From Clostridia bacterium (GTDB lineage: Bacteria; Bacillota; Clostridia; TANB77; CAG-465): a stretch of 64,000 nt of DNA. Numbering within the stretch: the first letter of the stretch is position 1; every line of letters begins with the position of its first letter. The notes beneath the pieces were generated by a model, which was not told the DNA's origin, did not search any database, and was given only the letters and a program-made list of their open reading frames with translations. Positions 34,868 through 57,344 of this stretch are shown here, in pieces. The stretch is taken from NCBI GenBank assembly GCA_028684095.1, contig JAQUGQ010000002.1, positions 62,001 through 126,000 of the forward strand, given 5' to 3'. The translations under genes and the position numbers were made by a program.

Positions 34868-37800
34868 TTATAAATCTAAAAAATTTAGTTGTGAGGATTT
34901 AGGCATGTTTTTAAAACATCCGTTTTTTTCAAGAACCTCTATTGATACTTTTCCAAGTTTAGCCTTTATTTGAACATCTTCTATTGATTCAAATTTTCCT
35001 TGTTTCCTAGCTTCTATTAATTTTTCAGCATCAACACCTCCAAAACCTGTAAGTGCAGTAAGTGGTGGTCTGATTCCTTCTTCTTCAACTAAAAATTTAT
35101 TAGATAAAGATAAATAAATATCAACAGGTAAAAATTTAATTTCTCTTTCATACAATTCATTTATTACCTCTAAAACTGTTAATGTATCCTTATCAGTTTG
35201 TGACAGATTTTCTCTAGATTCATAATCCTTTATAGCATTTTTTACAATGTCTTTTCCATTTAACATTATATCAGAAATAAAACTATTAGCTCTTACAGTC
35301 AAATAAGTAGCATAAAATTCCTTTTTGTAATATACTTTAAAATATGCAATTCTATATGCCATCATAACATATGCTGCTGCATGAGCTTTAGGAAACATAT
35401 ATTTAATTTTTTTACAGGAATCTATATACCAATCAGGTACATTTGCTTGTATCATAGCCTTTTCCATTTCTTCGGTTAACCCTTTACCCTTTCTAACATT
35501 TTCCATTGTTTTAAATGCTATTGAAGGTTCTTCTCCCATCTGTATTAAATATATCATTATGTCATCTCTAGTACATATAGCTTCTTTTAAAGTTGCAACT
35601 TTATTTTCAATTAAAGTCTGAGCATTACCAATCCAAACATCTGTACCATGAGATAACCCAGATATTCTAATTAGTTCGCCAAATGTCGTTGGTTTCGTAT
35701 CTATAAGCATTTGTCTTACAAATTTAGTTCCAAATTCAGGAACAGCAAATGTTCCTGTTTCAGAGTTTATTTGTTCCTTAGTTACCCCTAATACTTCAGT
35801 AGAAGAAAATAATGACATTACCTTTTTTTCATCAAGTGGTATAGTAAGTGGATTTACTCCCGTTAAATCTTGTAACATACGTATCATAGTTGGATCATCA
35901 TGTCCAAGTATATCTAATTTAAGTAAATTATCATGTATTGAATGAAAATCAAAATGAGTTGTAATTGATTTAGCAAACACATCATCAGCTGGTTTTTGTA
36001 TTGGGCAAAAATCATAAATTTCTTTATCTTTTGGTACTACTATAATTCCACCAGGATGCTGACCAGTAGTTCTTTTTATACCTGTACATCCCCTAGATAT
36101 CCTGTTTATTTCTGGCATTAATATAGGTTTTTGTTTTTCATCATAATATTTTCTAACAAATCCATATGCTGTTTTATCTGCTATTGTTCCAATAGTACCC
36201 GCTCTAAATGTTTTAGATTTGCCAAATAATAATTCTGTATGATTATGAGCCTTCGATTGATAATCTCCAGAAAAATTTAAATCTATGTCAGGTGATTTAT
36301 CACCTTTAAATCCTAAGAAGGTTTCAAATGGTATATCCATACCATTTTTATTCATTTGTATATTACAATTAGGACACATTTTATCATCTAAATCTATACC
36401 TGTAGTAAGTGTTGTATTTGGAAATTCACTATATTTACATTTAGAACATATATAATGAGCTGGAAGAGGGTTTACTTCTGTAATACCTGTCATTGTCGCT
36501 ACAAATGAAGAACCAACAGATCCTCTTGATCCGACTAAATATCCATTTTCATTAGATTTTATAACTAGTTCTCTAGCTATTATATACATGACAGCAAAAC
36601 CATACTTTATTATAGGTACTAATTCTTTTTCAAGTCTTTTTTCCACTATTTCAGGTAATTTTTCACCATATATTTCTCTTGCACTTTCATATGATATTTT
36701 TTTTATATTTTCTTCACTTCCTTCAATAGAAGGGGGATATGTACCATCTGGAACAGGTTGTATATTTTCACACATATCAGCTATTTTATTCGTATTAGTA
36801 ACCACTATCTCTTCTATTTTTTCTTTATCTAAATAGTAGAACTCTTTTCTCATTTCATCTGTAGTTCTAAAATATAAAGGTGCTTGTTTATCAGCATCAC
36901 TGTAACCTTGTCCTGACATTATAATACGTCTATATATTTCATCTTCTGGATTTAAAAAATGTGCATCTGTAGTCGCAACTACCGGTATGTGTAACTTATC
37001 TCCTAAATCAATAATGCGTTTATTTACATCAATTAAATCTTGAATCCCATTTACTTTTCCATTATCTATATAAAATTGATTATTACCTAAAGGCTGTATC
37101 TCTAAATAATCATAATATTTTGCTATATCTACAATTTCAGATTCCTCTTTTTTATTTATAATTGCCTGATACAATTCACCTAATTCACAAGCTGATCCCA
37201 CAATAAGTCCTTCTCTATATCTATTTAACAGAGATCTAGCTATCCTAGGTTTTTTATGAAAATTAAAAAGATGTGAAAATGATATTAATTTATATAAGTT
37301 TTTAAGTCCTATATAATTTTTAGCAAAAATTATAACATGATTATAAGGTATGTTTTTTATTTCCTTATCTATCACTGAATATACATATCCTTTGATGTTT
37401 AAACCTTTTTTATTAATATCCTTAATCATTTGGTTAAATATTTCTGTAGTAGCTCTAACATCGTTTATTGCTCTATGAGCACCTTCTAATGGAATACCCA
37501 TATTTTGAGCTATTGTCCCTAATTTATGATTTTCATAATATTCATATAATTCACGTGATATAGCCAATGTATCTATAGCCTTATTTTCTATCTTTAAATT
37601 ATATTCTTTTGCAAAATGTGTAACAAATCCCAAATCAAAAGATGAATTATGTGCAACTAATACACTTCCTTTAGTAAACTCAATAAATTTAGGTAATACT
37701 TCATCTATTTTAGGTGCATTTTCTACCATAATATCAGTTATATGTGTAATTTCCTGAACTTGTTTAGGTATTGGCCTCTCTGGGTTAACAAATGTACTAA

Positions 37801-38002
37801 ATTCTTCTATTATTTTGCCGTCCTTTACTTTAGCAATAGCTATCTCTGTTATTCTATCTATCCCTGGTTTAAAACCTGTTGTTTCTAAATCAAATACACA
37901 ATAAGTATCTGAAATAACAAACTCAGGTTCAACATCTACAACTAGATAACCTTCAACCCCATAAATAACTTTTGTTTTAGCAGCTGCTAGTCCGGCCTTC
38001 CT
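34868..38002 (-). CDS. polC: DNA polymerase III PolC, C-terminal part (exonuclease, second PHP part, polymerase); separated by a frameshift
   Basis: The frame is open from 38002, after a TAA, and reads GLAAAKTKVIYGVEGYLVV directly, continuing the protein encoded by the 37977-39176 frame. It contains the proofreading exonuclease (VFDLETTGFKPGIDRITEIA, then VAHNSSFDLGFV, with D/E residues intact), the rest of the PHP domain, the zinc cluster CSKCKYSEF and CPNC, and the polymerase active site KSPDIDLNFSGDYQ. No ATG, GTG or TTG with a ribosome site exists before the first ATG at 37729, which lies inside the exonuclease domain, so independent translation is unlikely. Joined to the N-terminal part, the total is about 1435 aa, the normal PolC length. 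Confidence 0.9.
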   Translation of the reverse strand, partial: RKAGLAAAKTKVIYGVEGYLVVDVEPEFVISDTYCVFDLETTGFKPGIDRITEIAIAKVKDGKIIEEFSTFVNPERPIPKQVQEITHITDIMVENAPKIDEVLPKFIEFTKGSVLVAHNSSFDLGFVTHFAKEYNLKIENKAIDTLAISRELYEYYENHKLGTIAQNMGIPLEGAHRAINDVRATTEIFNQMIKDINKKGLNIKGYVYSVIDKEIKNIPYNHVIIFAKNYIGLKNLYKLISFSHLFNFHKKPRIARSLLNRYREGLIVGSACELGELYQAIINKKEESEIVDIAKYYDYLEIQPLGNNQFYIDNGKVNGIQDLIDVNKRIIDLGDKLHIPVVATTDAHFLNPEDEIYRRIIMSGQGYSDADKQAPLYFRTTDEMRKEFYYLDKEKIEEIVVTNTNKIADMCENIQPVPDGTYPPSIEGSEENIKKISYESAREIYGEKLPEIVEKRLEKELVPIIKYGFAVMYIIARELVIKSNENGYLVGSRGSVGSSFVATMTGITEVNPLPAHYICSKCKYSEFPNTTLTTGIDLDDKMCPNCNIQMNKNGMDIPFETFLGFKGDKSPDIDLNFSGDYQSKAHNHTELLFGKSKTFRAGTIGTIADKTAYGFVRKYYDEKQKPILMPEINRISRGCTGIKRTTGQHPGGIIVVPKDKEIYDFCPIQKPADDVFAKSITTHFDFHSIHDNLLKLDILGHDDPTMIRMLQDLTGVNPLTIPLDEKKVMSLFSSTEVLGVTKEQINSETGTFAVPEFGTKFVRQMLIDTKPTTFGELIRISGLSHGTDVWIGNAQTLIENKVATLKEAICTRDDIMIYLIQMGEEPSIAFKTMENVRKGKGLTEEMEKAMIQANVPDWYIDSCKKIKYMFPKAHAAAYVMMAYRIAYFKVYYKKEFYATYLTVRANSFISDIMLNGKDIVKNAIKDYESRENLSQTDKDTLTVLEVINELYEREIKFLPVDIYLSLSNKFLVEEEGIRPPLTALTGFGGVDAEKLIEARKQGKFESIEDVQIKAKLGKVSIEVLEKNGCFKNMPKSSQLNFLDL

Positions 38003-39176
38003 TTATTTCTTTATAGAAAGCTTTCGATATAGCTTGATGAGCTTCTGGAAATGATTGAGCAACACCATGATCTGTAATAGCTATAGCCTTATGTCCCCAT
38101 TTTATTGCCTCGTTTACTATGCTAGTAGCAGAAGATATACCATCCATAGCGCTCATCTGAGTATGAATATGTAATTCTACTCTTTTTTGCAGCGATGTAT
38201 CTTTTCTTTTTTCAGGTTTTTCTGCTTCTACTATGCTATTTATCATTATAGTTAATTCATTACTAAAAGTATCAATTTTAGGATTTCCCATTAATTTTAC
38301 ATATTCACCAACTTCTAATCTTGAACCAATTTTTTCTATATCATTATCATTCAAAAACATTTTACAAGAAATAGTACTTGTTAAATCAGTAATATCAAGC
38401 ATAACTAACATTTTACCTGACTTTAATTTTCTTATATCTTTAAAACATATCTCTCCTGATATACATGCCCTATCATAGCCATCATTTAGTTTAACAATTT
38501 TATCTTCTAATTCACTAGAAATATTTTTTCCTATTATAACGTAAGATGGCATATTACTTTCAAATTTTGGTTTAGGCTCTCTATTTGAATATTGTAAATA
38601 TTTTTCGTTTTTGGATAAATTAGTATTTACTTGCACATTATTAAAATCAGGTATACTTTCTACTATATTTATTTCAACTAATTTAGGTTTAACAAGTTCT
38701 TGTTGTGCTATTCCTTTCATATCTTCAAACTTAACATTAATACTTTTACCAAATTTGATTTGAATGCACTTACATATATATTCATCAATCCTTTTTAATT
38801 TTAGAAACTTTGAATATGGTTTATTCAAAGTAATTGTTAAATTACTATTTATATTTATATCAGCATTTTCAAATAATTCTTTTGTATATGAAACAATCTT
38901 ATTTACATCATTAAATACATCTCTTATATTTTCTACTGTAAGTTGTTCTATTATCCCAAAATATTTATAATTTACCTTAAAGTTTTTTAGTTCATATATT
39001 TCACATGCTTTTTTTTCAAAATCATTTATATCCTTTAAGGAAATATTAAGATTACTAGAAGCTTCCAACACAACAGAGTTTAATTTTTTTGAAAATTTAA
39101 CTTCATCTACATTTGCATTTAGAAAGTCATTTGATAACTCTATATTATTAAATACATCTTTAACAGTTTTTTGCAA
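37977..39176 (-). CDS. polC: DNA polymerase III PolC, N-terminal part; runs out of frame near 37985
   Basis: Replicative polymerase of low-GC Gram-positives, N-terminal 399 residues. It has the PolC N-terminal domains, an OB-fold region and the first part of the PHP domain with VELHIHTQMSAMDGISSATS and HKAIAITDHGVAQSFPEAHQ. The expected continuation KKAGIKVIYGVE-type sequence is in another frame: here the frame runs EIKEGRTSSC and stops at 37977. The two frames overlap over 37977-38002 around AAGGAAGGCCGGACTAGC, so a single added base would explain the break. The start is probably the TTG at 39176 with AAGGAGG upstream. It follows rseP after a hairpin. Confidence 0.9.
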   Translation of the reverse strand: MQKTVKDVFNNIELSNDFLNANVDEVKFSKKLNSVVLEASSNLNISLKDINDFEKKACEIYELKNFKVNYKYFGIIEQLTVENIRDVFNDVNKIVSYTKELFENADININSNLTITLNKPYSKFLKLKRIDEYICKCIQIKFGKSINVKFEDMKGIAQQELVKPKLVEINIVESIPDFNNVQVNTNLSKNEKYLQYSNREPKPKFESNMPSYVIIGKNISSELEDKIVKLNDGYDRACISGEICFKDIRKLKSGKMLVMLDITDLTSTISCKMFLNDNDIEKIGSRLEVGEYVKLMGNPKIDTFSNELTIMINSIVEAEKPEKRKDTSLQKRVELHIHTQMSAMDGISSATSIVNEAIKWGHKAIAITDHGVAQSFPEAHQAISKAFYKEIKEGRTSSC

Positions 39177-45750: not shown

Positions 45751-45858
45751 AAAAACAAAGAAAAGCAGTTACAATAAAAATCCTGTAACTGCTCTATTTT
45801 ACTGGTGGAAATGATCGGAATCAAACCGATACGGGATTTAACTCCCGCAGATTTTAAG
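45751..45858 (-). repeat. third, diverged copy of tRNA-Leu 3' half plus its terminator
   Basis: 45803-45858 matches the anticodon-to-CCA half of the tRNA-Leu at 52334-52391 with a few changes (for example ATTTCC for ATTCCC and a one-base deletion in the anticodon arm). It is followed by its own GCAGTTACA/TGTAACTGC terminator hairpin (45765-45792) and the shared AAAGAAAAGCAG block. There is no 5' half, so it is not a tRNA. Beyond it, 45859-46113 is AT-rich with a weak likeness to the 151-bp island repeats and no gene. Confidence 0.8.
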
Positions 45859-46113
45859 TTGAAAATTTGTTGATTTATACAAAAACATATTTTTCTAAGA
45901 TGCTGCTATTGCTATATTTTTAAAGAAGTATGCTCTATATTAGTTTATTATGTTTTATGTACGTATTTATATTACAAAAAACATTGTATTCATTATAGAA
46001 TAAACGTAATAGTATTTTAAAAATTTAATTTAATTTCTTATGAAATAGTGCCTTTTCACAATATTTTTTACCTATCATATAATATAGAACATGATAATAA
46101 AGGGGGTGTAATC

Positions 46114-46503
46114 ATGTTTAAAAACCCATATTACTGTGATGATAATAATACTTCTACAAATTGCTGTTCTAGAGATTCTGATAGTGACATTGCTAATTCT
46201 AATGATAGTGCCAATAATAATTACTTTTCTAAAGATTATGATTTGGACAACTATCATTATAAACAATCTAAGCTTTATGTTAACATGCAAGAATTGTTCT
46301 GTTTGTGTGCAGGAAAAGTACTTTGCTTCTTGTCTAGTTTATTAGCATTTACTGTAGGTTTAATTTTAGGAGCAATTTTTTCAGAAATTCTCTTACTTTC
46401 ACTTTCTTCAATAATTGTTTTTGCTGTAGTCTTAATAATACTAATTATTACATTATTAATATTCACGCATTGTAATTGCTGTAAGTACAGAAAATGTGGT
46501 TAA
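46114..46503 (+). CDS. small membrane protein with Asn/Asp-rich N-terminus and terminal cysteines
   Basis: 129-aa protein, unknown function. The ATG at 46114 has AAAGGGGGTG upstream. Residues 1-60 are hydrophilic and rich in D, N and S with a CC pair; then come two hydrophobic segments (about 65-92 and 95-118) and a short tail HCNCCKYRKCG with four cysteines. The charge and cysteine pattern suggests a membrane protein with a cytoplasmic metal-binding or palmitoylation-like tail, but nothing proves it. It is the only plus-strand gene in the tRNA-Leu array, between tRNA copies 2 and 3. An imperfect ATTCGA/TCGAAT hairpin (46509-46537) follows. Confidence 0.55.
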   Translation: MFKNPYYCDDNNTSTNCCSRDSDSDIANSNDSANNNYFSKDYDLDNYHYKQSKLYVNMQELFCLCAGKVLCFLSSLLAFTVGLILGAIFSEILLLSLSSIIVFAVVLIILIITLLIFTHCNCCKYRKCG

Positions 46504-46792
46504 TAACACTATTCGATATGTATAATACATGTCGAATACATAAGTTTAATAAAGTTTGTATACTCTATACAAAATTCATTTAAAAATCGAATATTGCATT
46601 TTAGAATAGCATAATTATTTCATTAATTATTTTAAATTACTTAGGGACAAGCTATATGATTACAAAGTATGCTTTCAAAAAATTAAAATTACCTTGATAA
46701 ATAATAAATTGAATCAGTTTTCTAGAACTATTTAAAATAAACTATTGTAAAATATCATTAAATTGCTTTCTGTTAAAACCTTTTAAGAAAGC

Positions 46793-46895
46793 AAAGAAAA
46801 GCAGCTATACAATAAATGTATAACTGCCTGGCATTACTGGTGGGAATGATCGGAATCGAACCGATACGGGATTTAACTCCCGCAGGATTTTAAGT
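46793..46895 (-). repeat. perfect 103-bp direct repeat: tRNA-Leu 3' half and terminator (putative att site)
   Basis: Identical over 103 bp to 52289-52391. It contains the tRNA from the anticodon loop to CCA and the GCAG..CTGC terminator but not the 5' half of the tRNA. The two copies bracket a 5.4-kb segment. Directly on its high-coordinate side begins a 151-bp repeat. The upstream stretch 46538-46792 is AT-rich with no feature. Confidence 0.9.
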
Positions 46896-47031
46896 TAAAA
46901 ATTTGATACTTCATAGAAAAATATAGTATGCTGAATTAGTTGATATTTCAACATTTATTGCAGACTATATTCTATATTTATTTATTATATATTCTAGCGT
47001 TTTATCTAGTTTGTTAGAAAAATGTTAGAAA
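46881..47031 (-). repeat. 151-bp island repeat R3
   Basis: Runs from CGCAGGATTTTAAG (tRNA core) to TGTTAGAAAAATGTTAGAAA. Same length and layout as R2 and R1. It carries the palindrome GTTGATATTTCAAC inside a larger imperfect inverted repeat (GCTATATT-like arms). Confidence 0.85.
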
Positions 47032-47073
47032 TTTTTCTGTTTTCTCTTGTTTATTATACTAACACTATCTGTA

Positions 47074-47535
47074 TTAAATTAATCTAACTAAAGCTAAAAA
47101 CGACTTAAGGTTATTAGATGGAACAATATACATGCCCAATGCATTTAGGTAATGTACCGCAATGGAAGTTAATTCATGTGCCCTATATTCATCGGCTTCA
47201 AATGCTTCCTTGTCAAAAATTTTAAGTCCAGTATATTCCGCTAGCTCTTTCAACTTAATAGATTTCAATTTTAATTCATCAGTAATACTAGTATTTGCCC
47301 AAGCCCACATCCAAGAATTACTTTTACTTGACCATGAACCAATTGGTATAATTATAAATTCCGACTCTACCTTACCAGCCTTTTTAAACTGAATAGATTC
47401 AGTAGTTTGGTCATACCAAAACTCATCATATTTGCCCAAATCGTAATCACTAAATAATAAAGCCTGCTTGTTTTCAAGTTCTTTATAACACTTATCCAAA
47501 AACTGATCAAATTCTTTATCCGTCAATTTAGACAC
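47074..47535 (-). CDS. DUF6882-like protein (island cargo)
   Basis: 153-aa soluble protein. The centre, SWSSKSNSWMWAWANTSITD with KLKELAEYTGLKIFD and then AHELTSIAVHYLNALGMYIVP, matches what I remember of the DUF6882 family, a domain of unknown function found near defence and toxin loci; this is from memory and not searched. It may start at GTG 47535 or at TTG 47526, since AAGGA spacing suits the latter. It has its own TTGATT/TATAAT promoter and is the sole gene between repeats R3 and R2. Its stop lies 42 bp from the TGTTAGAAA end of R3. Confidence 0.6.
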   Translation of the reverse strand: MSKLTDKEFDQFLDKCYKELENKQALLFSDYDLGKYDEFWYDQTTESIQFKKAGKVESEFIIIPIGSWSSKSNSWMWAWANTSITDELKLKSIKLKELAEYTGLKIFDKEAFEADEYRAHELTSIAVHYLNALGMYIVPSNNLKSFLALVRLI

Positions 47536-47561
47536 TTCCTTCCATTATATGAATAATATGT

Positions 47562-47590
47562 ATTATATAACATTTTAAAATAATAATCAA
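47562..47590 (-). promoter_or_regulatory. promoter of the DUF6882-like gene
   Basis: TTGATT-17 bp-TATAAT on the minus strand. Confidence 0.65.
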
Positions 47591-47650
47591 TGATCAAATA
47601 ATATATTTATATAATATCACTTGATTACAATATATCTGTATTTTAGCCTT

Positions 47651-47801
47651 CGTAGGATTTTAAGTTAAAGATTTGATACTTCGTAAAAAAATATAGCATG
47701 TTAAAACAGTTGATATTTCAACGTTTCTTGCAGGCTACATTTCATGTTAACTTATCTTATATTTCATTGTTTTATCTTATTTGTTAGAAAAATGTTAGAA
47801 A
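47651..47801 (-). repeat. 151-bp island repeat R2
   Basis: CGTAGGATTTTAAG at one end, TGTTAGAAAAATGTTAGAAA at the other, length exactly as R1 and R3. The sequence past the core differs from the tRNA, so only the 10-base core is tRNA-like. Confidence 0.85.
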
Positions 47802-47833
47802 AAACAATATATGACTATTTATTTTGAAAAAAT

Positions 47834-48301
47834 CTAATTATCTTTACTAATTATTTTCCCCACAAGCATATTAGGTAAATATTCTATAGTATAATATTCA
47901 TCAACTTCTATAGCTTTATAATAAAATACTATTATACTAATCTCACCTGTATCAATATTAATAACTTTAATTGATCTTCTTCTTATCAGATTGTCCCATT
48001 CAATAGAATGACTTAAAGTTTTACATCTAATTACTTTAAAATCTCTATTGATATAATTTTTTAAATCTTTAATTCCGACAGGTATTATAAATATAGCTAA
48101 TATTGGAACTGTTATTAAGACTATCCTTGCTGCTACATTAAAAGCTTTAATATGTTTTCTTACAAACTCTTTTTTATTTGGATATGCTTTTTCAGGATCA
48201 ATAATTATTTTTTTACTAAAAACTAATTTAGCACACCATAGACCTCCTATAATAATAAATAAATACCTTATATATTCAATAGCATAGTCATCTAAATTCA
48301 T
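47834..48301 (-). CDS. two-pass membrane protein (island cargo), unknown function
   Basis: 155-aa protein. Two membrane segments are seen (about residues 10-28 and 56-76), with a basic loop between and a C-terminal beta-rich soluble part of about 75 residues (FKVIRCKTLSHSIEWDNLIR, then VINIDTGEISIIVFYYKAIE). I do not recognise the family. AGAGGT supports the start and a TTGACA/TATCAT promoter (18-bp spacing) lies upstream. It is the only gene between R2 and R1, with its stop 33 bp from the R2 end, repeating the cassette layout of its neighbours. Confidence 0.6.
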   Translation of the reverse strand: MNLDDYAIEYIRYLFIIIGGLWCAKLVFSKKIIIDPEKAYPNKKEFVRKHIKAFNVAARIVLITVPILAIFIIPVGIKDLKNYINRDFKVIRCKTLSHSIEWDNLIRRRSIKVINIDTGEISIIVFYYKAIEVDEYYTIEYLPNMLVGKIISKDN

Positions 48302-48358
48302 TTTGCATTTACCTCTTTCTTAATTATGACAATTTTCTCTTATATTTAATATAGGTAT

Positions 48359-48388
48359 ATGATATCACAAGATTTATATTATTGTCAA
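48359..48388 (-). promoter_or_regulatory. promoter of the 48301 membrane gene
   Basis: TTGACA-18 bp-TATCAT on the minus strand, between this gene and R1. Confidence 0.55.
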
Positions 48389-48449
48389 GTTTTTCCAAAA
48401 TTTAAGGAATATAACTGTCATATTTTATAAGCTATAATTATTTAGTCTT

Positions 48450-48600
48450 CGTAGGATTTTAAGTTAAAGATTTGCTATTGTACAAAAAAATATAGCATGT
48501 TGAAACGGTTGATATTTCAACGTTTCTTGCAAGCTATATTCTATGTTAATTTATTGTACATTTAACTGATTTATCTTATCTGTTAGAAAAATGTTAGAAA
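48450..48600 (-). repeat. 151-bp island repeat R1
   Basis: CGTAGGATTTTAAG to TGTTAGAAAAATGTTAGAAA, length as R2 and R3. R1 and R2 are the most alike (for example a shared run TTTAACTTAAAATCCTACGA on the minus strand). Confidence 0.85.
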
Positions 48601-48645
48601 TCATCTTTTGTCTCATTTTGTAGGTCATCAATTAATTTTTACTAA

Positions 48646-49326
48646 TTATCTATTAACAAACAAATGAAAATTACTATATCTTTTTAATGAATTATTATCT
48701 TTTTTAATAAAATCCCATGTTGCTTTATAACTCCCTCTAACTGCAATTTCCGTATCGTTAATAAACGGAATAAAAAATTGTGGATAATAGTAATATAAGT
48801 TTTCAAATTTGTTTGATAATTCTTTTTTCATGGCATCATCTGCATTTTGTTCTTTATGCAATACATGCTCTAAATTACATGAAAAATAATAAACATTATA
48901 TGGTAGTTTATCTCTTATTTCTTTGAGTGCTATTAAAATATTTAAGAAACCACTTTTCTTTAAATTTCTTCTAATTATATTTGCAACATTTCTTGTTTTT
49001 ATAAATTGGCCATTATAGCTTGTCCCTTCTTTATCTTCAAATATTACGTTATTATTATTTATAAAAACTCCATCAGTATCTACGATATGAATTACTCTTT
49101 CTATATCCTCAATTTCAAAGAAATTTTTATCCATACATTCAGTTATTTTTTCATTAATTTTATCAATAAGATTTATACTATTAGTCTCTGAATCAGTCAA
49201 TATATCACCACGAATAATTTTAAAAAGTATAGTTTTATCTTTAAATATTTCGCTCAAAATTCTTTCCAAAGAAACTTGATCAGAATAACCTTCAACAATT
49301 ACAATAATTACCTTTTTAACACTCAT
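48646..49326 (-). CDS. TOPRIM-type protein, putative effector of a two-gene defence module
   Basis: 226-aa protein starting at an ATG that overlaps the ATPase stop by 11 bp (AGGTGA upstream); a GTG at 49338 is also possible. The N-terminal VIIVIVEGYSDQVSLERIL with E12 and D16 and the later VIHIVDTDGV (D83, D85) form a TOPRIM-like metal site. The rest is helical with no second known motif. An AAA ATPase followed by a TOPRIM protein is the arrangement of PARIS (AriA-AriB) and resembles OLD/AbiL-type abortive-infection modules. Here the TOPRIM partner could be a nuclease held inactive by the ATPase. I cannot tell which family without a search. Confidence 0.6.
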   Translation of the reverse strand: MSVKKVIIVIVEGYSDQVSLERILSEIFKDKTILFKIIRGDILTDSETNSINLIDKINEKITECMDKNFFEIEDIERVIHIVDTDGVFINNNNVIFEDKEGTSYNGQFIKTRNVANIIRRNLKKSGFLNILIALKEIRDKLPYNVYYFSCNLEHVLHKEQNADDAMKKELSNKFENLYYYYPQFFIPFINDTEIAVRGSYKATWDFIKKDNNSLKRYSNFHLFVNR

Positions 49327-50704
49327 CGGCAACTTCACCTGCCAATCTAAAGGCCCTTCTTATTTCAAAATCATTGGTCTCATTGTATAAATTTTCTTTT
49401 TGACCTCCTAATACTATACTTTTAATATATAAAGATCTCAAATTATTGTTAGTTTTAACATTAGTAAAATTAATATATCTATTATCTGGATTAGTAGTAG
49501 TAAAAAATACTGATTCATTATTTAATATTTCTAAAGGTCTTAAATTATGAGAAGTAAATATTAATTGACCTTTACCACCAAATTCTAACACTTTTAATAT
49601 TTCTCCTAATAAATATTCATAAATGCCTGAGTCTAATTCATCGATAACTACACAGACCGAACTCTTATTATATACAGAAATTAAAGCACCTAAAATACAG
49701 ATTATTTTAATAATACCCTCTGATTCACATTCTATTGGTATACTAAGATTATCTTTAAGTGATAATAATTGTACTTTTATTCCTTCTGTTCCATCTGGAT
49801 TCTGTTGTTTTCCGTAATTACGTAATTCAATTCTTAATGTTGGAATTATTTTATTTAACACGATGTTTAACCTAAAGATAACTTTATTTAACATACAAAA
49901 ATTTTCTTCTGTAATTACTGGTACACCTTTTATTGGTATAGCAATATCACCAACTGTTATCTCATTTTCATCTTCAAGTCTAAAAGTTAATGGTAAAAAC
50001 AAATTAAGGGAAATAGCCGCCAAACTTTTATTATTAATAATGATTAAATTACACTTAGCATAATATTGCAATGCCTTTATAATATTTCCATACTCTTCAT
50101 TTTTGAAAGCTTTTCCAAATATATTCATACTATACTTATTAAATATAAACGAAGTGTTTTTTTCTATAGATAGTTGCTTAGCAACTTTAATTTGAACAAT
50201 ATTTTCTTTATCTGAACTTATTAATTTATCAAGCATTATTTTTGGTTTAAATTCAATTCCTGTTGATTCTTTATCATAACTTATTATTGCTTTCTTAGAT
50301 TTCCATATTCCATTATCAAATTTTGAATACGATAACTTTTCATGAGATATTTCTACGATTTTATTTTCCAATTTTTTTAGTGTGATTTTATAATTAACCA
50401 AATACCTCTCATTGAGTCTTTCAATATGAAAATCAAATTCTAAAGTCGACTCTTTAGAAAATACATTTATATAGTCATATGTATCCTTAAATAATTCGTT
50501 TCCTTCTAATAAGTTTTTTAAAAATCTACAAGCATCTACTAAAGCTGTTTTTCCAGAACCATTTTGTCCATATATGCCAATAGTTTCAAACTTATCATCA
50601 CATTTTTCACCAAGCAAATAATTGTTAAATTTAATTGTTCCGTTTTTAACATTTTTTAAATTTGAAATTCTTATTCTCTGTATTTTTATTACAGCATTTT
50701 TCAT
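49316..50704 (-). CDS. AAA-family ATPase (ABC/OLD-like), putative sensor of a defence module
   Basis: 462-aa ATPase of the AAA_15/AAA_21-like group. The start MKNAVIKIQRIRISNLKNVK leads to Walker A GQNGSGKT (46-53). Walker B is VCVVIDELDSG near residue 350, followed by LIFTSHNLRPLEIL, the pattern of ABC-type ATPases in OLD, AbiL and PARIS systems; a coiled coil could sit between. The ATG at 50704 has AGGAGG upstream, and a TTGATT/TATAGT promoter is in place. It is coupled to the TOPRIM gene by an overlap. The pair lies within the tRNA-Leu island, where defence genes are common. No methylase or helicase is adjacent. Confidence 0.78.
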   Translation of the reverse strand: MKNAVIKIQRIRISNLKNVKNGTIKFNNYLLGEKCDDKFETIGIYGQNGSGKTALVDACRFLKNLLEGNELFKDTYDYINVFSKESTLEFDFHIERLNERYLVNYKITLKKLENKIVEISHEKLSYSKFDNGIWKSKKAIISYDKESTGIEFKPKIMLDKLISSDKENIVQIKVAKQLSIEKNTSFIFNKYSMNIFGKAFKNEEYGNIIKALQYYAKCNLIIINNKSLAAISLNLFLPLTFRLEDENEITVGDIAIPIKGVPVITEENFCMLNKVIFRLNIVLNKIIPTLRIELRNYGKQQNPDGTEGIKVQLLSLKDNLSIPIECESEGIIKIICILGALISVYNKSSVCVVIDELDSGIYEYLLGEILKVLEFGGKGQLIFTSHNLRPLEILNNESVFFTTTNPDNRYINFTNVKTNNNLRSLYIKSIVLGGQKENLYNETNDFEIRRAFRLAGEVADEC

Positions 50705-50727
50705 AAAAATTCCTCCTATCACATTTA

Positions 50728-50756
50728 ACTATAACACAAGTTAAAGCTAAAATCAA
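50728..50756 (-). promoter_or_regulatory. promoter of the ATPase-TOPRIM pair
   Basis: TTGATT-17 bp-TATAGT on the minus strand. A palindrome GATACA-TTT-TGTATC lies 20-30 bp further upstream (about 50777-50793) and a longer imperfect AT palindrome at about 50886-50945; either could be an operator. Confidence 0.55.
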
Positions 50757-50953
50757 CATTTTTTATTAAAATTGATACATTTTGTATCTATTTTAATATT
50801 TTTTATTCTTTTTTATATTATTACACGTTATTTGTTAACATATACTTTAATTTCATATTTATTTAATAAAACTTATTTGAATATAATTGCGCATAATTAT
50901 ATTATCATAATAATTATATTATAATTATGTGTAATTATGATATAAATCATAAA

Positions 50954-51183
50954 TTATATACTAACTTTATATCCTGTTACTTTTCCATATATATATATCT
51001 TTTTCTGTTGTATAAATAGGTTTATATTTTTTATTTTCTGCCATTAAAATTATACTATTATCATTTTTATAATATCTTCTTACATGCATTTTCTTATCTT
51101 TATCTTCTTCATAAAAAAATACAATTATATCATTATCATTAAATGATAATGCAGGTTCTCCCCATTTTTGATGTATTTTTTAA
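50954..51183 (-). pseudogene. C-terminal relic of a LexA/CI-type (S24 peptidase) repressor
   Basis: An open frame without a start reads KWGEPALSFNDNDIIVFFYE, then HVRRYYKNDNSIILMAENKK, then IYGKVTGYKVSI and a stop at 50954. It follows the LexA/CI C-terminal fold (GDIVA-like, V-R-Y with the catalytic Lys region, ENxxYxPI, GKVxGV). The DNA-binding half and the serine are missing and a TAA precedes the frame. It indicates that a phage-like or ICE-like regulator once stood here. Confidence 0.6.
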
Positions 51184-51209
51184 ATGATTTATATAATATT
51201 CTAAGACAT

Positions 51210-51244
51210 AAAAAACACTCTTATAAATTGAAGAGTGTTTTTTC
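51210..51244 (-). terminator. terminator after the 51257 gene
   Basis: AAAAACACTCTT/AAGAGTGTTTTTT hairpin with T run on the minus strand. Confidence 0.85.
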
Positions 51245-51256
51245 TTTTTATTATAA

Positions 51257-52108
51257 TTAACATATTATGTTTCTATTATCGTTATTAGAGTTTATATATT
51301 CAATGCCTTCATAATTATTTTTAATTGCATTATTAGATATTATAATTAATAATTCTTCGTTTTTAACATAGATATCTACATATACAGAATCAGCTATCAT
51401 TATTATAAGAGCACATTTACTTTGTTCAAATTCTTCATATGTATTAATTTTATGTACTTCTTCACCTTTTGGAAAAGCTTCTAAATCAAGAAAAACAGGA
51501 TAATATTTTTTCTCTTTAATTAAATTGTACATAATATCTCCATTAATTATTTCTGATTCAAATAAAAATTTATTGTCTTCTACATGTACTTCTTGATTTC
51601 CTGTTATCCACGTATATTTTGAACAATCTATACCCTCTAAAATATCATTGAGAACTTTAGACCATTCATTTGGTATAAGAAATCTTATACCCCTTCTAGT
51701 AACATCATCTTGTGCTTGAACATTAATAACTTTAATTGATTGACTTTCGTCAGTTTTTATTGAATTATTAATTATATCTGTAAATATACTTCCATTTTTA
51801 TTTATAAATTTTTGCATTTTAATTTCTCTCATTGATAGGAATATAAATATAATTGAAGAAACAATTACTCCATATAAGCCTGATACATTATAAATAAATA
51901 CATTAAATCCTATAAGGATACATATGGCGATTATTAATAGACCAGGAAATGTTTTCAATAAATCAAATAAGTTCTTATTATTAGGATCTTCACTTGCTAT
52001 ATTATCAAGCAACTTTCTTGTCCTTAAAATTATTGTTCCTATTTTTATAAATACTAAATAAAATATTATAAGAACAATAATTGCACTTATATATCCAAGT
52101 TCTCTCAT
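51257..52108 (-). CDS. membrane protein with DUF2691-like C-terminal domain (island cargo)
   Basis: 283-aa protein. Three hydrophobic segments (about 4-27, 54-75 and 80-95) form the N-terminal third. The C-terminal part begins RRGIRFLIPNEWSKVLNDIL and continues with YTWITGNQEVHV, FESEIINGDIMYNLI, then YPVFLDLEAFP and CALIIMIADSVYVDIYV. This order matches what I recall of DUF2691, a small domain of unknown function in Firmicutes; recalled, not searched. The ATG at 52108 has GGGAGAG upstream. It is the first cargo gene after tRNA-Leu and ends in a strong terminator, so it is separate from the ATPase module. Confidence 0.55.
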   Translation of the reverse strand: MRELGYISAIIVLIIFYLVFIKIGTIILRTRKLLDNIASEDPNNKNLFDLLKTFPGLLIIAICILIGFNVFIYNVSGLYGVIVSSIIFIFLSMREIKMQKFINKNGSIFTDIINNSIKTDESQSIKVINVQAQDDVTRRGIRFLIPNEWSKVLNDILEGIDCSKYTWITGNQEVHVEDNKFLFESEIINGDIMYNLIKEKKYYPVFLDLEAFPKGEEVHKINTYEEFEQSKCALIIMIADSVYVDIYVKNEELLIIISNNAIKNNYEGIEYINSNNDNRNIIC

Positions 52109-52255
52109 ATATTTCTCTCCCATCCATTACCGAACAAATATATTATAGCATTTTAACTTTTAATATTCAATACATTCTTTGGAATTTTTTAAATATACTT
52201 ACAAATAAGTTATTCATAGATTTATTTAATATTCTAGTTCGTAATATATTATACT

Positions 52256-52275
52256 TGTTAGAAAAATGTTAGAAA
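52256..52275 (-). repeat. island arm-type repeat next to tRNA-Leu
   Basis: TGTTAGAAAAATGTTAGAAA, the same 20 bases that end R1, R2 and R3, here 14 bp beyond the tRNA terminator block. Two TGTTAGAAA units spaced 11 bp look like integrase or excisionase arm sites. Confidence 0.8.
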
Positions 52276-52288
52276 TTATCGTTAAAAT

Positions 52289-52391
52289 AAAGAAAAGCAG
52301 CTATACAATAAATGTATAACTGCCTGGCATTACTGGTGGGAATGATCGGAATCGAACCGATACGGGATTTAACTCCCGCAGGATTTTAAGT
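52289..52391 (-). repeat. perfect 103-bp direct repeat, tRNA-side copy (putative att site)
   Basis: Identical to 46793-46895. It covers the tRNA-Leu from the anticodon loop to CCA and the terminator hairpin GCAGTTATACA/TGTATAGCTGC that ends the tRNA transcript. Confidence 0.9.
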
Positions 52392-52422
52392 CCTGTGCGT
52401 CTGCCAGTTCCGCCACAATCCC
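52334..52422 (-). tRNA. tRNA-Leu(UAA)
   Basis: 89 nt including an encoded CCA. The D-arm has TGGCGGAACTGGCAGACGC; the anticodon stem CAGGA/TCCTG encloses CTTAAAA (anticodon TAA). A long variable arm (CGGGAGTTAAATCCCG) marks a class II Leu tRNA, and the T-arm is ATCGG-TTCGATT-CCGAT. Acceptor strands GGGATTG and CATTCCC pair except for a U-U mismatch at 5-68. This copy has both halves and a promoter, so it is the functional gene. Confidence 0.95.
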
Positions 52423-55367: not shown

Positions 55368-57344
55368 TTAATGTTTATTTGTTTCACCAAATAATTCATC
55401 AAATTTTGCTTCTAGTTGCTTTTGTAAATCATAACTGTCTTCTTTTTCAAGTATAGTATTATTATTGTTTATAATTTCTTTTTTTTCATCTGATTTTAAT
55501 GTATCACCAATTATACTTAAACTATCATCTTTAATTTTTTCTTTAGCTTTTTTTAATCTTTGTTCTAAATGATTTGTTATATTCATTGTAGAAATTTCTA
55601 CTTCTTCTGGTTTTACCATTTCTGTTATATCTTTTATTTCAGTTTGTTTTGCTATATCTCGTTGCTGATGATACTTATAATACCAAGCCTTCTCTGCTTT
55701 AATAGGCTTCATACCTCTTATTAAGATTATTTCTGAATTATTTTCCATTCTCATGATTTCATCAATTGTCATTAAGTCTCTTCCTTGTCTTTGTTCACTT
55801 ATGCTTACACCTTGTTTATTCCACTCGTTCTTGTCTTTACTAACAGATTTACTAGAAAATTTAATTGTTTTTTGACCTAAACTTTTACATATATATTCAC
55901 AAGTTTTTATAGACTTACATCCTAAAAAAATTTGAGTATCACAGTTAGCAATAATATTTTCCCATGTATCCTTATATAAACCTTCTAACTGATCTAAACT
56001 CTGTATTATTATAGATACACTTACTCCTAAACTTCTTGTTGTACTTAGTTTTTTACTAAAATCTGGAATTTGTCCAACATTAGCAAATTCATCCATTACC
56101 AAATAAACTTGTTGACTCAAAGTTCCACCATTTTTACTTGCCTGTGAATATAATCTTACTAATAATTGGCTAAAAAATATTGTTACTATATAGTTATATG
56201 TAGAATGATCAGCTGGAGTAATTACAAATATAGCTGTTTTCTTTTGACCTAGTGCTTCAAAATCAATATTATTAGATGTTGTTATTTTTTGCATATCAGG
56301 AGTATCAAAATGTGATAGTTTAGATACCAATGATATCGCTATGCTTTGTTTTGTTTTATCAGCACCTAAACGGATACCTTCATATTCTTTTCTACCAGGA
56401 TGTTCAGGCTTTAATTCATCAATAAATAATTTATCAAATACTGATTCATCACTACCACCAGCTCTTACTATATTTAAACAGCTAGATAAATTTTGTTGCT
56501 CAGTTGGTAATATAGATATAACATAATATATACAAGCTTTAAGTAACATTTTAGCAGTATTATCCCAGAATGGATCCGCAGATTTACTACCTCCATCACC
56601 TTCTCCGCCAGTAACGATTGTATGTGCTATTATATCAACATCTGAATGATCTTTCACATGTGATAAAGGATTGTATCTATCACTAAATTCTGGATCTACT
56701 AAATTAAATGCCTTAACATCCCAACCTGCATTTCTCAAATAAGTTGAAGTTTCTCTATATAGTTCACCTTTTGGATCAGTTATTACATAAGAACCTAATT
56801 TTTGTAGTATATTAGGCTTAACATAACATGCTGACTTACCAGTACCAGAACCACCTATTACAAGTATATTTTTATTAACTTTTACTTTTCTCAAATCTGT
56901 TCCCAAGTAGTGATTTTTACTTAATATAAAACCATTTTTTTTATTTAAAATTTCACTTCCGTCTTGTTGTTTATCAAATTCTTCTCCATTTTTACTCCAT
57001 TCACTAGAGCCGTTTTCCATACCATCATATTCATGTTTCTTTCCATTTTTAATTAAATAAGATATGTACAAACCTATAAATATTATTAAAATCCAAAATG
57101 ATATTTTAAGAAAACCAAAAAAATCCTGTCCTGACATTACTATTTTCCCAAGAGTACCTAATGGATTAGTTAAATTAGTCATAAATCCTGACATCACTTT
57201 TGTTGTTCTTTCATAACCTGTTAAAGTTTTCTCTAAGTCTAAACCAGATACGAAAAAAGCACCTATTACAAATATATCTATAAGTAAGTAGATGATAAAA
57301 ATAGTTATTATTTCTTTTTTCTTGTGTTTAAAGTTATTCAGCAT
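55368..57344 (-). CDS. VirD4/TraG-type coupling ATPase (orphan)
   Basis: 658-aa membrane ATPase that in type IV secretion links the DNA or protein substrate to the transport channel. Two or three membrane segments lie within residues 10-100. The RecA-like ATPase has Walker A GGSGTGKSACYVKPN (164-171 for the core) and Walker B VYLVMDEFANVG, with DPKGELYRET and RQGRDLMTIDEIMRME typical of VirD4/TraG. The acidic, coiled C-terminal tail (about 560-658) is unusual and could bind a partner. GAGG precedes the ATG. No relaxase, VirB4 or other mating gene is in the window, so either the other parts lie elsewhere or it serves another role. Confidence 0.88.
   Translation of the reverse strand: MLNNFKHKKKEIITIFIIYLLIDIFVIGAFFVSGLDLEKTLTGYERTTKVMSGFMTNLTNPLGTLGKIVMSGQDFFGFLKISFWILIIFIGLYISYLIKNGKKHEYDGMENGSSEWSKNGEEFDKQQDGSEILNKKNGFILSKNHYLGTDLRKVKVNKNILVIGGSGTGKSACYVKPNILQKLGSYVITDPKGELYRETSTYLRNAGWDVKAFNLVDPEFSDRYNPLSHVKDHSDVDIIAHTIVTGGEGDGGSKSADPFWDNTAKMLLKACIYYVISILPTEQQNLSSCLNIVRAGGSDESVFDKLFIDELKPEHPGRKEYEGIRLGADKTKQSIAISLVSKLSHFDTPDMQKITTSNNIDFEALGQKKTAIFVITPADHSTYNYIVTIFFSQLLVRLYSQASKNGGTLSQQVYLVMDEFANVGQIPDFSKKLSTTRSLGVSVSIIIQSLDQLEGLYKDTWENIIANCDTQIFLGCKSIKTCEYICKSLGQKTIKFSSKSVSKDKNEWNKQGVSISEQRQGRDLMTIDEIMRMENNSEIILIRGMKPIKAEKAWYYKYHQQRDIAKQTEIKDITEMVKPEEVEISTMNITNHLEQRLKKAKEKIKDDSLSIIGDTLKSDEKKEIINNNNTILEKEDSYDLQKQLEAKFDELFGETNKH

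Follow-up and report, generated by a model that had tools for sequence, protein, structure and literature searches.

The analysed window is a stretch of 64,000 nucleotides from contig JAQUGQ010000002.1 of the gut Clostridia bacterium assembly GCA_028684095.1, and all positions below refer to it. The minus strand carries a tRNA-Leu(UAA) gene at 52334–52422, the integration target and the sole full-length match found in the genome. The 3' half of this gene with its terminator (52289–52391, minus strand) is repeated perfectly at 46793–46895 on the same strand, the flanking base differing at both ends of the 103-bp repeat, and the oldest displaced copy, at 45751–45858 (minus strand), is 83.5% identical with two gaps. 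Both the perfect direct repeat and the diverged copy had been reported in the first-pass annotation and are borne out. An Rfam search revealed nothing besides the tRNA.

Four units, named A to D with increasing distance from the tRNA, follow one another at this locus, with core-to-core sizes of 3928 (A), 799 (B), 770 (C) and 1036 bp (D). The head of unit A contains the tRNA 3' half at 52289–52391 and that of the old unit D the one at 46793–46895, while B and C come without such a half. Unit A has both ends as in the integrase-bearing relatives described below, attL and attR both being kept, but the integrase is missing. Units B and C have a core at each side but possess neither a head arm nor a tRNA half; both start at the core, agree in 12 of the 13 following bases and then diverge, and their cargo differs. 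Since direct insertion of B or C into the tRNA gene would destroy the tRNA, we infer that they can stand only behind a unit such as A.

Structure of the attachment sites

The tail attachment sites of units A, B and C (48450–48600, 47651–47801 and 46881–47031, all on the minus strand) are three 151-bp repeats, 81–87% identical and without indels. The first-pass annotation gave their length correctly but had them begin with GGATTTTAAG, whereas they start with CG[C/T]A and GGATTTTAAG lies four bases further in (46885, 47655 and 48454). The tail site of unit D, the most distant from the tRNA, is decayed and its arms are gone (45840–46000, minus strand). The genome search suggested at that stage detected the 151-bp repeat at only these three places in the whole 1.46-Mb genome, all in the array and linked to tRNA-Leu. 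Phage and plasmid collections searched with a 160-bp form of the repeat gave no match.

Read along the tRNA, each repeat consists of an arm, a hairpin and a core. The crossover core is CTTAAAA, the anticodon loop of tRNA-Leu(UAA), and the double arm site comprises two copies of TTCTAACA, 11 bp apart. The tail arms begin 136 and 125 bp before the core; a fourth arm copy, the double site that heads unit A by the tRNA (52256–52275, minus strand), lies 116 and 127 bp past it. The 20-base arm pattern, with up to two mismatches allowed, occurs at four places in the genome, all in the array, and the reversed control at none, which exceeds chance expectation. All four copies are identical at 20 of 20 positions. 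In the three repeats, only 1 of 41 arm and core columns is variable, against 35 of the remaining 110 (p = 3e-5); the arm and core columns were picked after inspection, and an unchanged 20-base run anywhere is expected in about 10% of random placements. Such a constraint would fit a site that has been kept working, though not necessarily since its arrival here.

An imperfect hairpin, with a run of T's after it, can be folded from the repeat and is kept in the sister species G002. Copy C has one outer stem pair altered on both sides and has lost inner pairs, as judged without a shuffled control. Our guess is that this hairpin is a putative terminator; a terminator scan of the region did not include it among its calls.

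Gene content of the units

The largest unit, A, carries three minus-strand genes. They encode a 288-aa protein with DUF2691 and weak DUF2975 matches (51257–52123), an AbiLi-like AAA_21 ATPase (49316–50722; AbiLi E 6.5e-28), and, as the partner of this ATPase, a 230-aa protein with a weak TOPRIM match (48646–49338; Toprim 0.024, below the cut-off). Unit B encodes a 155-aa protein without a family match (47834–48301, minus strand), unit C a DUF6882 protein (47074–47535, minus strand), and unit D a 136-aa protein with no match above the cut-off (46093–46503, plus strand). The minus-strand cargo genes were said to end 33–46 bp from the repeats, and the measured gaps of 42, 32 and 45 bases agree with such close spacing. 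A promoter-like site is present upstream of each first gene in A, B and C, but this is weak evidence for cassette promoters, because the region holds 94 such sites versus 64.6 expected.

Homologues of the 230-aa partner were found in 7 of 366 genomes of the order, the window genome included, and in all six others the ATPase gene adjoins that of the partner, which once has an internal stop. A comparison of the partner with solved structures gave no convincing match. Of 50,697 phage records, only that of a Clostridioides phage contains the ATPase, at 42%. For the unit B protein, a single homologue apart from itself was detected in 371 genomes of the order. Homologues of the unit B and TOPRIM-like proteins were not found by a tRNA-Leu within about 1.5 kb, nor by any tRNA in the 3.4–3.7 kb fetched around them. 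A role in phage defence is plausible for the cargo of unit A only, whose ATPase and partner are a candidate AbiL-type pair.

Search for an integrase in the array and its genome

A genome-wide search for PF00589, in a genome judged 96.7% complete, gave no match in or beside the array. Pfam analysis of the six cargo proteins, which is also the extent of the search for serine recombinases, detected no recombinase, integrase or relaxase, and tblastn of the array with 12 integrases gave nothing better than E 0.21. The earlier statement that the array lacks a tyrosine recombinase is thus upheld.

The window genome's own integrases share 20–30% identity over long alignments with the integrases of TTCTAACA-arm elements; they lie away from tRNA-Leu, and no paired arm was present within the 3.6–6.1 kb fetched. 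The recombinase gene next to the same arm repeat that the first-pass annotation proposed to look for was not found in this genome. Two of these integrases, from C21 and C2, were considered as helpers and rejected: they are 31–42% like the integrase of G014, whose site has other arms, and so belong elsewhere. A direct helper related to the integrase remnant of G002 was likewise rejected, the best other one among the matches listed from 371 genomes of the order being at most 40% identical.

The locus in the genus

In G002, the same place between secF and the same outer genes is occupied by one unit with other cargo. Its tail site is 84% identical, and the integrase in the unit is broken into pieces. 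The third genome of the genus, G001, gave no tRNA-Leu match. The content of the tRNA-Leu locus differs between the two species compared of the three genomes in the genus.

Two further features of the window were observed. A 658-aa protein, which we take to be VirD4/TraG-like, is encoded beside secD (55368–57344), with a related frame at the same place in G002. A DNA polymerase at 34868–39176, presumably PolC-like, is seemingly split in two frames (34868–37729 and 37977–39176).

Related elements in other genomes

We scanned one genome for each of 84,980 species, the window's own genome possibly being left out, for the core and the double arm at the appropriate spacing. This revealed 19 stretches with one match in each, G002, G005, G020, G106 and G274 among them. 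In 18 of the 19, a tRNA-Leu 3' half abuts the core according to BLAST; the remaining one (L115, Butyricicoccus pullicaecorum DSM 23266) gave no BLAST match, although the sequence looks like a tRNA 3' half by eye. Core, arm and abutting tRNA half together make up the signature of an integrase attachment site, and the repeats are, as predicted from sequence, attachment sites of a tyrosine-integrase family that targets tRNA-Leu in other gut Clostridia.

Outside the window's genus, 13 tRNA-Leu units with both ends on one contig were examined, the kinship of seven of the genomes not being given. One of them, in G033, has other arms and no integrase and was left out, leaving 12 units: two in G390 and one each in G395, G389, G386, G397, G398, G400, G317, G005, G030 and G020; the head end of the G389 unit is cut at tRNA position 39 by the contig edge. 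A tyrosine integrase was found by tblastn inside all 12 complete units with these arms. In 11 of them its gene lies beside the tRNA, on the opposite strand and with its near end 65–295 bp from the tRNA 3' end, which is where the first-pass annotation expected an integrase in place of the cargo gene beside the repeat. The exception is G400, where the integrase is deep inside the unit and split in two reading frames. Together with the tRNA abutment, these integrases bear out the earlier reading of the repeats as sites of a tRNA-targeting recombinase.

Head arms occur at the same offset in 11 of the 12 units, double in eight and single in G005, G030 and G020, with none in G400. Tail arms are present in all 12, G030 having one exact copy only; eight of the units were originally found via the tail pattern, while the second G390 unit and those of G397, G398 and G030 are independent of it. 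SAM-like N-terminal domains accompany PF00589 in both the G317 and the G005 integrase. A Mob_Pre relaxase is also encoded by the G317 element, as is, beside the integrase, a small helix-turn-helix protein. In G390, two integrase-bearing units stand in tandem. A tail arm spacing of 117 bp is common only to the window and G002, the other families having about 154 bp; because of this difference, the integrases of the latter may not act on the window sites.

Several of these elements show features of their own. The tail attachment site is near-identical in G106, G274 and G317 (L091, L096 and L095), members of three genera of one family, which would be a sign of recent transfer. The elements of G005 (L069:13280–13558) and G030 (L071:11117–11395) bring a complete second tRNA-Leu gene, and the 5' half of the host tRNA (positions 1–41) is orphaned about 190 bp upstream. 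The G400 unit (G400:C33, L172) is an 18.6-kb composite in which the split integrase and an arm pair, with no core or tRNA half beside them, lie mid-unit near genes that resemble serine recombinases by sequence only.

Among viral contigs, none carried the core with a double arm or the start of the repeat, eight carried the core with one arm, and a search with six peptide patterns revealed no relative of the G317 integrase. The arm pattern alone, with at most one mismatch, was found in 12 of 385 genomes of the order, 10 of them outside the genus, three by a tRNA-Leu 3' half; the other seven matches were taken as chance, since they have no tRNA half and mostly lie inside or at the start of genes. 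Pairs of full-length tRNA-Leu in G004, G007, G009 and G013 were rejected as element ends, being two ordinary genes with core-type genes between them, as was the pair in G011, whose members point in opposite directions.

Other arm types were also observed at tRNA-Leu. G014 and G026 have an integrase there without TTCTAACA within 400 bp, and in G033, tRNA-Leu and a 3' half enclose a 2-kb unit that has TGACCA repeats 10–11 bp apart close to each end and in which tblastn detected no integrase. Several integrase types thus use tRNA-Leu, and integrase-less units are not confined to one of them. The head tRNA-Leu of G033 (L070:5113–5201) has the loop CTTTAAA and is assigned the anticodon tta by ARAGORN, which is ochre-suppressor-like, while the displaced 3' half keeps CTTAAAA; genes near the altered tRNA still end mostly in TAA. 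Either the assembly is wrong at this loop, or the anticodon has really changed at the crossover.

Origin of the array

The array is, in our judgement, probably a stack of integrase-less, CIME-like mini-islands bounded by attachment sites in tRNA-Leu(UAA). The units would have entered in succession, each at the tRNA or at a junction already present, and the integrase responsible, now absent, would either have been lost in cis or have come with a related element arriving in the cell. Unit A keeps the tRNA whole, which would let inner units lacking a tRNA half persist, and if a related integrase reached the cell, excision of single units or of the whole stack could follow. Any movement of the units, past or potential, would probably depend on the enzyme of another element. 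In favour of a stack are the tRNA abutment in 18 of 19 stretches, the integrases in 12 of 12 units, the conservation of the arms, the decay of unit D and the single unit in G002; against it are the lack of an integrase with these arms in the genome, the tail arm spacing that only G002 shares, and the absence of a head arm and tRNA half from B and C. Of the earlier proposal that the array is acted on in trans, the tRNA-Leu-linked sites stand. With no such integrase detected in the genome and a broken one in the G002 unit, the same facts are also accounted for if the integrase was lost in cis and the units then stacked.

That remnant, the decay of unit D and the missing helper integrase would also be accounted for if the units were dead: ordinary integrase-bearing mobilizable elements that stacked long ago, lost their integrase, head ends and transfer genes by deletion, and now form a fixed, immobile accessory island. 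We consider this possible but rather unlikely, since all four arm copies have stayed identical against a variable remainder of the repeat, and B and C begin at one and the same point 13 bases beyond the core, a coincidence hardly expected from two independent deletions.

The junctions of B and C look alike, as in an integron, and these two units could instead always have been single-arm cassettes, inserted singly at existing junctions by an integrase acting in trans. Each cassette would be equipped with a promoter, a hairpin resembling a terminator, a core and a single arm site; a tRNA half would be unneeded, with entry at existing junctions behind a unit that restores the tRNA. B and C do share the core, 12 of the 13 next bases and the tail site but not the cargo, and have the promoter-like sites; however, no free cassette or second array was found, each of the 19 stretches having one site (the window's own genome possibly left out), and homologues of the B and TOPRIM-like proteins are not located by tRNA-Leu. 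Such an origin of B and C is doubtful, and it is equally improbable that a visiting phage/IME-type tyrosine integrase builds integron-like arrays of small-gene cassettes at a tRNA. Duplication of the repeats and exchange of cargo by homologous recombination between them, with no integrase needed, is very improbable: the repeats are long enough and the 103-bp repeat is perfect though its flanks differ, but the similarity of B and C ends 13 bases past the core, and relatives show core-to-core insertions, including the tandem in G390.

Comparison with known systems

In integron cassette arrays, small genes are each followed by a similar recombination site, the system consisting of IntI, attI and attC. 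Unlike these, the window sites are arm-and-core sites in a tRNA, and no PF00589 protein is encoded in or beside the array. If B and C are movable, tRNA islands can grow nearly gene by gene, much like integrons. An IME (integrative and mobilizable element) has its own integrase together with a relaxase or oriT; neither an integrase nor a relaxase was found among the six cargo proteins.

The tRNA-Leu integrase elements of gut Clostridia (G317, G390, G005 and others) share the target, core, double arms and head offset with the stack but differ in their size of 7.6–25 kb, their own integrase and the tail spacing of about 154 versus 117 bp. The combination of core, double arm and tRNA half is a simple signature for finding such elements in gut Clostridia genomes, and it also yields intact candidate integrases.

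The ssrA islands of Dehalococcoides, 15 without and 16 with an integration module, resemble the window in having tandem units between repeats of the 3' end of an RNA gene, but differ in the serine recombinase, the ssrA target and the integrase-bearing neighbours in the region (PMC3146451).

CIMEs (cis-mobilizable elements) have lost integration and transfer genes and kept their att sites, stack by accretion, measure 1.2–13 kb with cargo, and are most decayed farthest from the target (PMC7563491, PMC5704250). The array shares with those of S. salivarius and S. agalactiae a tandem of small cargo units that lie between att sites at a gene's 3' end and encode neither integrase nor relaxase, and in both the most decayed unit, here D, is farthest from the target. 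No integration or transfer genes were found inside its units (Pfam, PF00589 and tblastn with the 12 integrases), and its att family is that of integrase-bearing elements, with no intermediate of a derivation by deletion from an ICE or IME seen for A, B or C. Unlike the window, the streptococcal CIMEs lie behind an integrase-bearing element, as found by a method that could see only such cases. The tRNA-Leu elements of S. salivarius were not found in tandem (PMC7563491), which counts against a CIME stack. Units B and C also lack the target-side half and arm, whereas the classical definition has both att sites kept.

A full-text literature search found no closer system. In layout the array lies close to the CIME tandems already described; it would be a variant of these and not a class of its own. 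We have not seen described a run of three units without an integrase-bearing partner, nor bare-core units such as B and C. At this locus, small accessory genes, possibly including a phage-defence pair, reside at a tRNA with well-kept recombination sites but no integrase of their own.
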